Shown: positions 4,253-9,517 of the stretch, piece after piece
Position numbering within the stretch: the stretch's first letter is position 1
How the letters are laid out: every line of letters begins with the position of its first letter
NCBI GenBank assembly: GCA_003134435.1
Contig: PLBE01000215.1
Span: 71,518-135,517, forward strand
Reading direction: 5' to 3'
DNA: 64,000 nucleotides
DNA from: Acidobacteriaceae bacterium
GTDB taxonomy: Bacteria; Acidobacteriota; Terriglobia; Terriglobales; Acidobacteriaceae
Notes under the pieces: generated by a model
What the model was told of the DNA's origin: nothing
The model's input: only the letters and a program-made list of their open reading frames with translations
Database searches by the model: none
Program-made: the position numbers and the translations under genes

Positions 4253-5680
4253 CTACGGTTTGATTTGTTCGACCGAGTCGTCAATCGCGCGCCGGCTGAG
4301 CGCGAACTGCAACAGCCATTGACTCGGGACCGGTTGGCCGTTTTGCCGCGGAGGATCGAATTTCCACCCGCGAGCGGCCTCCAGCGCCGACTGCGCAAAG
4401 TGCCGGCTCGATCCGGATGACTTCAGCCGGGCCTGCGTGACGTTACCCGCCTCGTCCACGTCCACTTTCACCCGGATCCGAATCCTCCCTTTAATCGTAC
4501 GCAGCGCTGCCGGCGTAATCTGCGGTATCACGCGCTCGTTCACCTTACCCTCGGCAGACGCACCGGATGGAGCGGACGCCGCCCCGCTTGCTCCGCTTCC
4601 CGATGCGCGCTGCCCATCGTTCGCCGCCAAAGCAGGCGCCTCCGGCTTGGTTGAGTAGCCAGCGCCCGCGGAGGAATCAACGACATGTTCACCGGATTGC
4701 GATGCTGGATTAGGTGGCGATTTCGGCCGGGCAACCAGAAACGACGCCACTACGACGGCCGCCACCAGCCCGATCGTATAGGTCCACTTGGCGGATTGCC
4801 TCCCACCCCGCGCGGTTCCCGAGATGGCGGACGCTTCCGCAGCCGCCGCGTCGCCAACCGGCGCCCCTGGCGTTTTAGAAATGGCAACCTCACGCGCCGC
4901 CGCTACCGCTGGGGCAGAGGCTAACTCAGGTTGCGGACGCCGCAGACAATCGCCGATCTGGCTCAAACTCCAGCGCCGGGTAGGATCGACTTGCAGACAG
5001 TTTTCAATGATCTCCCGGAAGGGTTGCGGAATTCCATCCGGCACGACCGGCGCTTTCTTCTGCCGCAAATCGAGCACCGGCGCGCGTTGCGTCAGCACCT
5101 CGATCAACATGATCCCCAACTGCCAGACATCCACCGCCGCCGAGATTGTTCTGGTCGCTTCTGGAGGACCATAAGCATTGTCCACGTCCGCGTTGCTCGT
5201 CCTTACCCCGGGTACGGACAAAACGTCGCTCGCCAGTTTCACCTGCTCTCCACTGGCCAGAATGTTCGAGGGGTGGATGTGCCCGTGCACAAACCCCTGG
5301 TCGTGCAAATACTGCAACGCTTGCAGAATCGGCGGAAGCATCCCTCGCGCTTCATCCGCAGTTAGCGCGCGCTCCGGTATAACCTGGGAAAGATTTTCTT
5401 CCGCGTATTCCTCAACCACATAAAGGAGCTCTGTACCCTCGAGCCCGGATTCAAAAAGGCGAATCAGATTCGGATGGTTCAGTTCGCGGGCCGCCTGCCA
5501 ACGCTGGAGTCGCTTCACCACATCCGCGTCGCTGGGAATCAACTTGATCACCGCCTTGCCGGAAGCGCCATCCCTTTGCGTGAGAAACACGGCGCCGTGG
5601 TCGGAGCCGCCCAGGTAATTCTGCAACGGGTACTTCCCATCGATGATGCGGCCTTCCCACCATTTCACGATTTCGGTCAT
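4253..5680 (-). CDS. Membrane pseudokinase with C-terminal TonB-like domain
   Basis: 475 residues. Residues 15-250 have a Ser/Thr-kinase fold: a degenerate glycine loop (LGGSDHGAVF, 23-32), VIK lysine at 46, and an APE-like PPE near 172-174. The catalytic HRDLKPSN is replaced by HGHIHPSN (132-139), so the catalytic Asp is His134, and the DFG region reads ASDV (150-153). The loss of both catalytic residues predicts a pseudokinase. A transmembrane segment follows (about 300-317), then a Pro/Ser/Ala-rich linker and a TonB C-terminal-like domain (about 390-465, with GNVTQARLKSSG and GWKFDPPRQNG). It may be a scaffold that couples a cytoplasmic ligand to an envelope partner. Convergent with the FDH operon; no operon partner is evident. 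Confidence 0.85.
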   Translation of the reverse strand: MTEIVKWWEGRIIDGKYPLQNYLGGSDHGAVFLTQRDGASGKAVIKLIPSDADVVKRLQRWQAARELNHPNLIRLFESGLEGTELLYVVEEYAEENLSQVIPERALTADEARGMLPPILQALQYLHDQGFVHGHIHPSNILASGEQVKLASDVLSVPGVRTSNADVDNAYGPPEATRTISAAVDVWQLGIMLIEVLTQRAPVLDLRQKKAPVVPDGIPQPFREIIENCLQVDPTRRWSLSQIGDCLRRPQPELASAPAVAAAREVAISKTPGAPVGDAAAAEASAISGTARGGRQSAKWTYTIGLVAAVVVASFLVARPKSPPNPASQSGEHVVDSSAGAGYSTKPEAPALAANDGQRASGSGASGAASAPSGASAEGKVNERVIPQITPAALRTIKGRIRIRVKVDVDEAGNVTQARLKSSGSSRHFAQSALEAARGWKFDPPRQNGQPVPSQWLLQFALSRRAIDDSVEQIKP

Positions 5681-5850
5681 AGGGTCTCGTTCATCTCTTC
5701 TCGTTCATATTCGCGGCCTCGATCGCCCGCTCTATTGTATGTGAGTGCGCGCTCTGCCCGGTAGAAGGCTGCCAGGACGAGGAAGTGAAACGCAGCCTTT
5801 CGCTTGCCAACGGCTCGGAAATCTCCTGCCCAACACTTTACAATAGCCAC

Positions 5851-6210
5851 ATGAAGCCCGTCCCCGCCGAGATTCACGGTCAGCGCTACATCAGTCTGGC
5901 TACGTTTCGTAAGAGCGGCATCGCGGTCTACACACCCATCTGGTTCGCCGAATACGATAACAAACTCTTTTTCATGACGAACAGCAAATTGGGCAAGTGC
6001 AAGCGCCTCCGCAACAACCCCCAGGTAAAAATCGCACCCTGCACCATCCGCGGAAAGATCACCGGCCCCGAATTCTCCGCCACTGCCCGCAAAATGAGCC
6101 CGCAAGAAGCGGTCAGAGCGCGCCAGGCCATCAATGCGAAATACTGGCTCGCCCGCTTGCCGTTTCTATGGCGCAACACGGATACTTACTTCGAAATCAC
6201 CCTGCAGTGA
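5851..6210 (+). CDS. PPOX-class (F420/FMN-dependent) oxidoreductase family protein
   Basis: A small split-barrel protein of the pyridoxamine-5'-phosphate-oxidase-like class. The start is set at 5851 (MKPVPAEIHG), giving 119 residues; an in-frame ATG at 5785 adds 22 residues with no family character. Family marks are YTPIWFAEYDNKLFFMT, the basic stretch KCKRLRNNPQVKIAPC and RGKITGPEFSATAR, which match the F420-dependent PPOX subfamily well known from actinobacteria. Whether it uses F420, FMN or heme cannot be told from sequence. It is a single gene upstream of gap. Confidence 0.8.
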   Translation: MKPVPAEIHGQRYISLATFRKSGIAVYTPIWFAEYDNKLFFMTNSKLGKCKRLRNNPQVKIAPCTIRGKITGPEFSATARKMSPQEAVRARQAINAKYWLARLPFLWRNTDTYFEITLQ

Positions 6211-6409: not shown

Positions 6410-7420
6410 ATGGCCGTAAAAGTTGGCATTAATGGATTTGGACGCATCGGACGTAACGTTCTACGCACCGCGCTTGCAGACAAGAACCTCGAATTCGTCG
6501 CGGTCAACGATCTCACCGATCCCAAGACGCTGGCTCACCTGCTCAAGTACGATTCGATTCTCGGCAACCTGCCGCACACCATCACCGCCGGTCCCGATAG
6601 CATTTCAATCGACGGCAAAGTCATCAAGGTTTTTAAAGAAAAAGATCCCGCCGCCTTGCCTTGGGATTCCGTCGGAGCGCAGGTCGTCATCGAGTCTACC
6701 GGGAAATTCACCGACGCCAACGAGGCCAAGAAGCATCTGCGCGGCTCGGTGAAAAGAGTCATCATCACTGCCCCGGCAAAGAACGAGGATCTCACCGTGG
6801 TTCTCGGCGTGAACGAACATAAATACGATCCGGCCAAGCACCACATCGTTTCGAATGCTTCCTGCACCACAAACTGTCTGGCTCCGGTCGCCAAAGTCAT
6901 CAACGACAACTTCAAAATCGTCAGCGGCACCATGACGACCATCCATTCTTATACGAACGATCAGGTGATTCTCGACTTTCCGCACAAAGACCTGCGGCGA
7001 GCCCGTGCCGCCGCGCTCAATATGATTCCGACCACCACCGGCGCGGCTAAAGCGCTGAAACTCGTCATCCCCGAACTGGCCGGCAAAATTGACGGCTTTT
7101 CCATGCGCGTGCCCACACCCAATGTCTCGGTCGTCGACCTGGTCGTCTGGGTAGAAAAAAAGACCACGAAAGAAGAGGTCAACGCCGCGCTCAAGGCGGC
7201 TTCCGAATCCGGACCGCTGAAAGGCTACCTGGGATACGAAGAGGGCGAACTGGTCTCGTGCGATTTCAAAGGCGACTCGCGTTCCTCCATCGTGGACTCG
7301 CCCATGACCCTGGTGGTCGGCGGTAACTGCGTCAAGTTGATCTCCTGGTATGACAACGAGTGGGGATACTCTTGCCGGGTTCACGACCTGATCAACCTGA
7401 TGGCCTCCAAAGGCCTGTAG
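6410..7420 (+). CDS. gap: Glyceraldehyde-3-phosphate dehydrogenase
   Basis: Cytoplasmic glycolytic enzyme of 336 residues that converts glyceraldehyde-3-phosphate, NAD+ and phosphate to 1,3-bisphosphoglycerate. The N-terminal Rossmann start is [14 protein letters not shown], the catalytic cysteine lies in [11 protein letters not shown] near residue 153, and the C-terminal [12 protein letters not shown] is typical. Full family length. ATG 6410 has a good ribosome site (TTTGGAGGCACC). It begins a glycolytic run with pgk, a macro-domain gene and tpiA on the same strand. Confidence 0.97.
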
Positions 7421-7558: not shown

Positions 7559-8770
7559 ATGCCTAAACTTTCCATTCGCGATCTTCCTCTCAACGATCAC
7601 CGCATCTTCATGCGCGTCGACTTCAACGTCCCCCTCGACGACGGGCGGGTCATGGACGACACTCGCATTCGCGAGACCTTGCCCAGCATCGAGTATGCCT
7701 TGCGCCATGGCGCTCGCCTGATTCTCGCGTCGCACCTGGGCAGGCCCAAAGGCAAACCGAATCCCAAACTGAGCCTTAAGCCCGTCGCGGAACGGCTCCG
7801 CATGTTGCTCGACAAAGAACTGTCGCGCGGCGAGAACGTCGGCTTCTGTCCCCAGTGCGTGGGTCCGGAAGCCGAAGAAATGGCCCTCAAACTCGAAAAG
7901 GGCCAAGCGCTCCTGCTCGAAAATCTCCGCTTCCATGCCGAAGAGGAAAAGAACGACGAGAACTTTTCCAGGCAACTGGCCAAACTCGCCGAGTTCTACG
8001 TCAACGACGCCTTTGGCACCGCCCATCGGGCTCACGCCTCCACGGTTGGCATCACAAAATTCGTGCAGAAATCGGCCGCCGGTCTGCTCATGGAGAAAGA
8101 ACTGGAATACCTCGGCCGCGTCCTGCAGAATCCCGAACACCCGTTCGTGGCAATCCTCGGCGGCGCCAAAGTCAGCGACAAAATCGGAGTCATCCAGAAC
8201 CTGCTCGACCGAGTCGACGCCCTCATCGTCGGCGGCGGCATGGCCTATACCTTCCTCAAGGCGCAAGGCGAATCCATCGGCAAAAGTCTGGTCGAAGAAG
8301 ACAAAATCGAACTCGCCCATGACCTTCTACAACAGGCGAAAACGCACAAGCTTAAGTTCCTGTTGCCCACCGATCACGTCATCGCCGACCGCGTCGAAGC
8401 AAACGCCGCCACCAGGATCATCGGCCCCGGCCAGCCCATTCCCGACAACATGATGGCCCTCGACATCGGACCCGTAACCACCGAAGCTTTTTCTGAAGAG
8501 ATCGCTCGCGCCCGCACCATTGTCTGGAACGGCCCCATGGGTGTTTTCGAAATTCCCCCTTTCTCCAAAGGCACTTTCAAGATTGCCCACGCCGTGGCCG
8601 AAAATGCCGGCGCGACAACCATCGTTGGCGGAGGAGACTCCGTCGCCGCCGTGAAAGCCGCCGGCGTTGCCGACAAGATCACCCACATTTCAACTGGCGG
8701 CGGCGCTTCACTGGAATTCCTGGAAGGCAAGAGACTGCCCGGAGTCGAAGCGCTCACCGACAAGAAATAG
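7559..8770 (+). CDS. pgk: Phosphoglycerate kinase
   Basis: Cytoplasmic enzyme of 403 residues that transfers phosphate from 1,3-bisphosphoglycerate to ADP. It has the N-terminal signature [12 protein letters not shown] (near residue 20), [16 protein letters not shown], the hinge and nucleotide region [13 protein letters not shown], and the C-terminal GGGDSVAA. The length is normal. No strong Shine-Dalgarno precedes ATG 7559. The macro-domain gene follows after 12 bases. Confidence 0.97.
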
Positions 8771-8782
8771 GTACCAGATGTC

Positions 8783-9517
8783 GTGTCCAACTTTTTGCGT
8801 GCGCTTCGTGCCGCTGGTATCAATGGCGATACTCTAAACCGCGCTTCACAGACTGCCCACGAGGAGCCGTCTGAAGGATCACTCTTGAGCGATGCCGGAG
8901 TCACTCTACCGCGCGACAACGACTACACCTTGCATCTTAAGGTCAGCGATCCGGATGAAGTGCGCTTCTTTCGAGGAGACCTTACGGAAGATCCGTCCGA
9001 CGCCATCGTCAATGCGGCCAATTCCGATTTATTACCCGGAGGCGGCCTCTGCGGCGCGATTAACTACAAAGGCGGCGCGGAGATTTTCCGCGAGTGCGGC
9101 CGCATTCGCCGCTCCAAGGGTCCGCTGGCGCCAGGAGGCGCTGTCCCCACCACAGCCGGGCAACGTCCTTCCAAGTATGTCATTCATGCCGTCGGCCCCG
9201 TTTGGGAAGGCGGAACCCGCGGTGAAGCCGGAATCCTTGCCCGGTGTTATCGCGAATCGATGCGTGTGGCCGATGATTTGGCTCTGCACTCCATTGCATT
9301 TCCCGCTATCTCCACCGGGATTTTCAGATATCCCGTCGTCCAGGCCGCGTCGGTGGCAATCCCCACGGTCATCGCCAGCCTGATCATCGCCAGGCATCTC
9401 GTGCTGGTTTCGTTTGTCTTGTTCGACAAAGTTACGCTCGATACCTTCGCCACTGCCGCTCTTACTCAGCGTCAGCCAGAATCTGATAGATCCTACGAGG
9501 TTTCAATTTCAATATGA
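8783..9517 (+). CDS. Macro-domain protein (ADP-ribose/O-acetyl-ADP-ribose binding or hydrolase)
   Basis: 244 residues. An N-terminal extension of about 70 residues precedes a macro domain with VNAANSDLLPGGGLCGAI (about 75-92), KYVIHAVGP and FPAISTGIFRYP. The pattern is that of the MacroD/YmdB group, which hydrolyse O-acetyl-ADP-ribose or remove mono-ADP-ribose. The start used is GTG 8783, 12 bases after pgk; it has no clear ribosome site, so the true start is uncertain. The stop overlaps the tpiA start in an ATGA, indicating translational coupling. The position between two glycolytic genes is unusual and suggests a link with NAD+ metabolism, which is inference. Confidence 0.87.
   Translation: MSNFLRALRAAGINGDTLNRASQTAHEEPSEGSLLSDAGVTLPRDNDYTLHLKVSDPDEVRFFRGDLTEDPSDAIVNAANSDLLPGGGLCGAINYKGGAEIFRECGRIRRSKGPLAPGGAVPTTAGQRPSKYVIHAVGPVWEGGTRGEAGILARCYRESMRVADDLALHSIAFPAISTGIFRYPVVQAASVAIPTVIASLIIARHLVLVSFVLFDKVTLDTFATAALTQRQPESDRSYEVSISI

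Follow-up and report, generated by a model that had tools for sequence, protein, structure and literature searches.

We examined a 64-kb stretch of the genome of a soil bacterium (the whole stretch is called the window here), in which a minus-strand gene encodes a protein of 475 amino acids. This protein joins a kinase-like domain to a TonB-like C-terminal domain through a membrane span. The gene, its parts and its neighbors are as follows.

4253..5680 (-): whole gene, pseudokinase, membrane span, linker and TonB_C (open reading frame with an ATG start; Pfam; orthologues mostly full-length)
4955..5620 (-): pseudokinase domain, residues 21 to 242 (Pfam Pkinase, 93.4 bits, E = 2e-26, exceeding the curated cutoff)
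5543..5545 (-): retained ATP-site Lys, residue 46, in AVIK (Lys in 84 of the 88 members that align at this position)
5279..5287 (-): HGH replacing HRD, residues 132 to 134 (alignment with intact kinases; Asp absent in 87/89)
5222..5230 (-): SDV replacing DFG, residues 151 to 153, with an Asp one place later (18/18 alignments; HMMER alignment to PknB)
4730..4786 (-): single membrane span, residues 299 to 317, with neither His nor Ser-X3-His (hydrophobicity of one stretch)
4547..4729 (-): linker rich in Ala, Ser and Pro, residues 318 to 378 (AlphaFold2 pLDDT mostly below 50)
4256..4546 (-): TonB_C-type C-terminal domain, residues 379 to 475 (Pfam TonB_C at residues 401 to 455, 42.2 bits, E = 1.1e-10, exceeding the curated cutoff)
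5785..6210 (+): F420-dependent PPOX-class oxidoreductase, the divergent neighbor (TIGR03666, 117.2 bits)
6410-7420: gapA-like gene beyond the PPOX gene (named by eye)
7559-8770: pgk-like gene after the gapA-like gene (named by eye)
8783-9517 (+): macro-domain protein, flanked by the pgk-like gene and a triosephosphate-isomerase-like gene (these two named by eye)

The original prediction held that the marks of the kinase fold remain and that a membrane span separates it from a TonB_C-type C terminus. Both statements agree with the Pfam matches and the single hydrophobic stretch, and the C terminus also matches the NCBIfam model tonB_Cterm (44 bits against a cutoff of 27.1). Structure prediction, proposed for the two ends of the protein, modeled both well, one as a kinase fold and the other as the fold of the TonB C-terminal domain (CTD). 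The AlphaFold2 model of the whole protein, based on 27 aligned sequences, has a mean pLDDT of 81.5; taken in blocks of ten residues, the value mostly exceeds 90 across the kinase and TonB halves. In a fold search with this model, the best PDB match to the kinase half was Aurora A (8c1d; Z 25.4, root mean square deviation [rmsd] 2.4, 235 residues aligned). Since kinases filled the results of that search, the tail was modeled and searched alone (pLDDT 85.6). It matched solved TonB C-terminal domains, namely, the CTD of Escherichia coli TonB (1xx3; Z 9.9, rmsd 2.2, 87 residues aligned) and TonB bound to the receptor FoxA (6i97_D; Foldseek E = 2e-4; Z 9.6, rmsd 2.1, 89 residues aligned). A C terminus unlike TonB, which would have refuted the original prediction, was therefore not what these models showed. 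The linker varies from 32 to 123 residues among 73 family members (median of 75). With one span in the protein, the TonB_C tail would lie across the membrane from the kinase fold.

Catalytic motifs and age of the family

We aligned 92 family members and pieces, counting sequences with identical last 200 residues once. Motifs were counted over the 89 rows that hold the kinase part, leaving out three tail-only pieces. At the position of the HRD Asp, most members have His (43) or Arg (40), and the others have Gly (3), Ala (1) or Asp (2). The predicted loss of the catalytic Asp is thus borne out across the family. The two members with a catalytic-loop Asp (HGD; L060:1471-3135 [+] and L162) have SSD in place of DFG and are each other's nearest relatives in the tree.

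Eighteen intact kinases from the same genome were aligned with the window protein, and all of them placed S-D-V under D-F-G, as did the HMMER alignment to PknB. This placing is supported by L127, an intact kinase from the window genome in which the same short loop goes with a normal DFG. None of the 89 members has Asp at the DFG-Asp position (Ser in 59, Thr in 9, Ala in 6 and other residues in 15), whereas the residue after it is Asp in 88. The claim that the magnesium Asp is gone therefore stands for the DFG position itself, but the ASDV sequence keeps an Asp one place later. Elsewhere in the pocket, the catalytic-loop Asn (Asn 139) is kept in 87 of the 89 members, and the glycine loop is degenerate (second Gly in 0 of the 87 members with a residue there). 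The retained ATP-site Lys and displaced Asp mean that nucleotide may still be bound; judged from these motifs, the cytoplasmic kinase fold would no longer phosphorylate. With its kinase fold and the conserved loss of both the HRD Asp and the DFG Asp, the protein has the sequence and fold features of a bacterial Ser/Thr pseudokinase.

Close homologues with intact HRD and DFG, which according to the original prediction would have implied a recent loss, were not encountered among these members, and the two HGD members still lack the DFG Asp. Because the HRD Asp is absent from 87 members and the DFG place is free of Asp in all 89, the loss must be old. A recent loss of activity is ruled out by the family-wide replacements. 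In a quick tree, 88 family rows formed one side of a branch against the 18 intact kinases (SH-aLRT of 100); the catalytic columns were left in, which can favor the grouping of the family members. Several long branches of this tree were flagged, its inner order is poorly resolved, and its intact kinases come from the window genome alone. Of six close pairs tried, four were unsaturated and gave dN/dS values of 0.28 to 0.36 for the kinase part; two of these four share G008. Synonymous sites were saturated in the other two pairs (G015/G013 and G018/G029), which therefore say little. For the TonB part, dN/dS was 0.72 in one close pair (G017/G008). On this sequence evidence, the pseudokinase family is old and is maintained by purifying selection.

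The window protein was used as a query (E = 1e-20) against its own genome and 60 relatives, and 26 of the 61 genomes matched. Besides the window genome itself, the matching genomes belonged to the genus (19 of 23 relatives), to other parts of the family (5 of 13) and to other orders of the class (1 of 10), whereas the remainder of the order gave none (0 of 14). When 299 genomes drawn from the whole class were searched with a family profile (A1, E = 1e-60), 59 matched, spread over four families. In a phylum-wide sample, which is thinner per class than the class sample, 3 of 297 genomes matched at E = 1e-50, all in the same family as the window genome and including it. Two genomes with different family labels (G172 in f7 and G341 in f1; loci L069 and L070) had members that agreed in their motifs and in the length of the frame; one of the two was dropped from the alignment as identical over the last 200 residues, which points to recent transfer or a binning error.

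The window genome holds 21 other kinase matches, 18 of which have both HRD and DFG. Two lie outside this tally, as one starts past the HRD position (L129) and the other sits at a contig end (L007). The last (L130, C136:56270-56731) is degenerate, with HRS for HRD, GYG for DFG and Lys for the loop Asn, making the window gene one of two degenerate kinases seen in this genome. On its contig, L130 lies about 2.6 kb from two genes (L091 and L096) for receiver-like TonB_C proteins.

Tails, gene neighborhood and ExbB

Some relatives carry different tails. A SPOR domain replaces TonB_C in two members (L185:325-1635 [-] and L186:374-1741 [+]), with scores of 21.6 and 23.9 bits that barely exceed the Pfam cutoff of 21. 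SPOR domains usually bind peptidoglycan. The TonB_C match falls below the cutoff in L160 and L183, and the open frame of L160 extends about 300 residues further upstream. In the tree, a clade of paralogues (L178, L180, L181, L184 and others) has a different ending, and in the long paralogues scanned (L178 and L184) Pfam gives only the kinase part above the cutoff. The four named paralogues have a Cys-containing stretch of the CDECGK type and a tail without a Pfam name; L184 has two family genes in tandem. Some relatives lack the tail: in G002, L176, L177 and the first copy in L184, the open frame holds the kinase half only. A search with a profile built on the TonB tail (E = 1e-12) gave 31 matches in 29 of 151 genomes. 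Twenty-five of these are tails of pseudokinases from the class search of 299 genomes, and one more, in G062, belongs to a frame whose kinase part appears degenerate by eye. This tail subtype thus mostly travels with the pseudokinase.

We clustered the open reading frames around 24 loci (18 in the genus and 6 outside) and read the larger frames of the six non-genus loci and of G018 by eye. The gapA-like (336 aa) and pgk-like (403 aa) clusters each lie near the gene in 15 of the 24 loci, and the PPOX gene does so in 9. Formate dehydrogenase genes are found near it in eight loci each, within the genus, and the convergent neighbor varies. Six more open frames on the strand of the gene (cluster 9) are, by their position, probably antisense shadows of the PPOX gene. 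Among the six loci outside the genus, no neighbor recurred in at least three loci. The neighborhood is therefore partly conserved within the genus and has no evident functional link to the gene. An operon with a partner was considered and rejected; the gene neighborhood indicates no partner.

Two single loci had other neighbors. In L140 (G055 C4:141000-157000), a kinase of 876 residues with intact HRD and DFG is encoded about 3.4 kb downstream on the same strand and is a possible active partner of the pseudokinase. In L144 (G031 C19:1-9000), the coding sequence downstream of the pseudokinase gene is 1,262 residues long and resembles a TonB-dependent receptor by eye.

The original prediction suggested that a kinase-fold sensor might drive or gate a TonB-dependent process. 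In E. coli, Ser16 and His20 of the TonB span contact ExbB, as described in PMC12215075, and the span His is reported there and in PMC8928145 to be essential; the title of a paper cited in PMC8928145 states that Asn can replace His20. Neither His nor Ser-X3-His occurs in the 19-residue span core of any of 73 members (76 with a tail match minus the 3 tail-only pieces). We also searched for ExbB relatives with the six ExbB matches of the window genome as queries (E = 1e-5). None were found in the window or in any of 23 stretches that flank the gene in relatives, and both positive-control stretches were recovered. The lack of Ser-X3-His and of a nearby ExbB weakens the "driving" role without disproving motor coupling.

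How special the missing motif is can be judged from the other TonB_C proteins of the same genome, which has 27 TonB_C matches (two share a frame). Ser-X3-His spans are found in L084, L097, L107 and L109, plus a fifth, L101. Most of the TonB_C proteins lack the motif whether or not they have a cytoplasmic domain, so its absence is not special to the pseudokinase family. L109 lies about 1.2 kb from an exbB gene. A second exbB-adjacent TonB_C gene (L083) is cut by the contig end and stayed outside the motif comparison. Five TonB_C proteins of this genome with a single span and no Ser-X3-His have a domain before the span. It is a GAF domain above the cutoff in L087 (C5) and L092 (C44), a receiver-like domain in L091 and L096 (both C136; 17.7 bits against a cutoff of 30.2) and unassigned in L098 (C149), with no match above the cutoff.

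Known systems and possible functions

Both halves of the protein are known modules. Its kinase fold is that of PknB-type Ser/Thr kinases, and among PDB sequences the family profile matched PknB best (3.9e-24). PknB carries PASTA domains, whereas the window family has TonB_C in their place and lacks HRD and DFG. With TonB energy transducers (PF03544), the protein shares the fold of the C-terminal domain and a linker after one span. The span of an energy transducer lies close to the N terminus; the window protein differs in having 298 residues before its span and in lacking Ser-X3-His.

Transmembrane pseudokinases have precedents as well. The text of PMC12599244, a 2025 review of pseudokinase families, describes EssB/YukC of type VII secretion and mycobacterial MviN (ActPs3 family) as such. 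Like the window protein, they are membrane proteins whose cytoplasmic kinase fold lacks catalytic residues, and a scaffold role is reported there for EssB/YukC. Their motifs differ according to the table in that review (VALT and Lsidhpsr in MviN, LDMR and Ytfvlapd in EssB). The AVIK and HGHIHPSN of the window protein do not match the ActPs3 motifs. On the tail side, a similar layout is found in GltG of Myxococcus xanthus, which PMC3169522 describes as an FHA domain, a span and a TonB_C domain and as binding AglR of the AglRQS gliding machine; GltG and GltJ are likened to TonB in PMC9389320. GltG thus also combines a cytoplasmic signaling domain, a transmembrane segment and a TonB-like periplasmic tail (PMC3169522). 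It differs in having FHA instead of a kinase fold (no FHA match in the window protein with Pfam at E up to 1), and the identified neighbors in the window are metabolic.

Neither "TonB" nor "Acidobacteri-" occurs in the text of PMC12599244, figures aside. A literature search by title and start of abstract, with most subscription journals outside its coverage, found no paper describing a pseudokinase combined with TonB_C. The family is real, conserved and apparently undescribed. Transmembrane pseudokinases and signaling domains on a TonB tail are both known, and what appears to be new is their combination.

Our preferred explanation, held tentatively and with a little less than balanced confidence, is that the protein is a bitopic inner-membrane scaffold or sensor, with a noncatalytic pseudokinase, a TonB-fold tail that docks at the envelope and no drive from ExbB/ExbD. 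The cytoplasmic kinase fold would serve as a protein-binding module, perhaps one that binds nucleotide, as in EssB/YukC and MviN. The TonB-CTD fold, held on a flexible linker after the single span, would reach into the periplasm. There it may dock on an envelope partner, which could be a receptor in the outer membrane with a TonB-box-like peptide or else a periplasmic protein. Docking would position or cluster the pseudokinase, so that the state of the envelope could be passed to a putative cytoplasmic partner. No proton-motive drive from ExbB/ExbD would be involved. The swap to a SPOR tail in two members and the GAF-span-TonB_C layout in the same genome support this scheme, as do, by analogy, the precedents of GltG (a tested interaction) and of EssB/YukC and MviN. 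Several observations weaken it: the gene neighborhood points to no partner, Ser-X3-His is also missing from most other TonB_C proteins of this genome, and GltG binds the ExbB-like AglR, so a sensor-TonB_C protein can be motor coupled. In addition, the retained Lys, Asn and displaced Asp leave room for atypical catalysis, two members have a loop Asp (L060 and L162), and some relatives consist of the kinase half only. Sensing or anchoring at the envelope nevertheless seems more likely than powering transport. A wider and rather doubtful reading would make the protein one of a lineage-wide set of unpowered TonB-fold receptors. Pseudokinase, GAF or receiver-like modules would each be joined by one span to a tail in contact with outer-membrane receptors or some other envelope partner, and the state of the outer membrane would be read directly in the cytoplasm without ExbB/ExbD. 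The pseudokinase would then act as an adaptor to cytoplasmic partners, possibly the many active kinases of the genome.

The signal could also run from the inside out. Here, the pseudokinase would read the state of the cytoplasm from nucleotide or a phosphorylated partner and control when the tail would compete with true TonB for receptors, acting as an unenergized brake on uptake. This kind of gating is unlikely in our judgment. It draws support from the TonB-CTD fold of the tail and its match to the receptor-bound chain 6i97_D, and spans uniformly without Ser-X3-His make receptor occupancy without pulling conceivable. Competition is plausible with 27 TonB_C matches in one genome, and the receptor-like coding sequence downstream in G031, named by eye, is a faint hint in the same direction. 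The two SPOR-tailed members, however, suggest an envelope anchor over a receptor competitor. An atypical enzyme has a still smaller chance of being correct. In that case Lys 46, Asn 139 and the displaced Asp 152 would bind ATP and metal for another chemistry, as in SelO and SidJ, which PMC12599244 lists as pseudokinase folds that can be active. The near-universal retention of these three residues fits such a role, but the missing second Gly of the glycine loop and the replacement of the catalytic Asp by His or Arg in 83 of the 89 members argue against it.

Least likely of the functional readings, and in our view improbable by a wide margin, is an energized TonB that links ExbB/ExbD to a receptor in the outer membrane and is regulated by the kinase fold. 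Such a protein would be expected to have the TonB_C fold, linker and single span observed here, and the genome has six ExbB homologues. The binding of GltG to AglR and the patchy occurrence of Ser-X3-His among the TonB_C proteins of the genome are also in its favor. Against it, the spans of the family have neither His nor Ser-X3-His, yet the motif is present in four TonB_C proteins of the genome, one of them (L109) near exbB, and the flanks hold no ExbB relative. Decay of the kinase gene to a functionless state would account for the missing catalytic residues, but it is scarcely credible: the dN/dS of the kinase part is low in four close pairs, and in four families of the class the frame stays open and carries replacements of the same kind. 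Random decay was rejected on the dN/dS values.

Bacterial pseudokinases have been little studied. The uniform replacements in this family, together with a tail of known fold, make concrete tests possible: nucleotide binding by the pocket and TonB-box binding by the tail. If the tail does bind receptors without ExbB, TonB-fold domains would gain a use in signaling that is separate from energy transfer, a use common to the GAF and receiver-like versions encoded in this genome.
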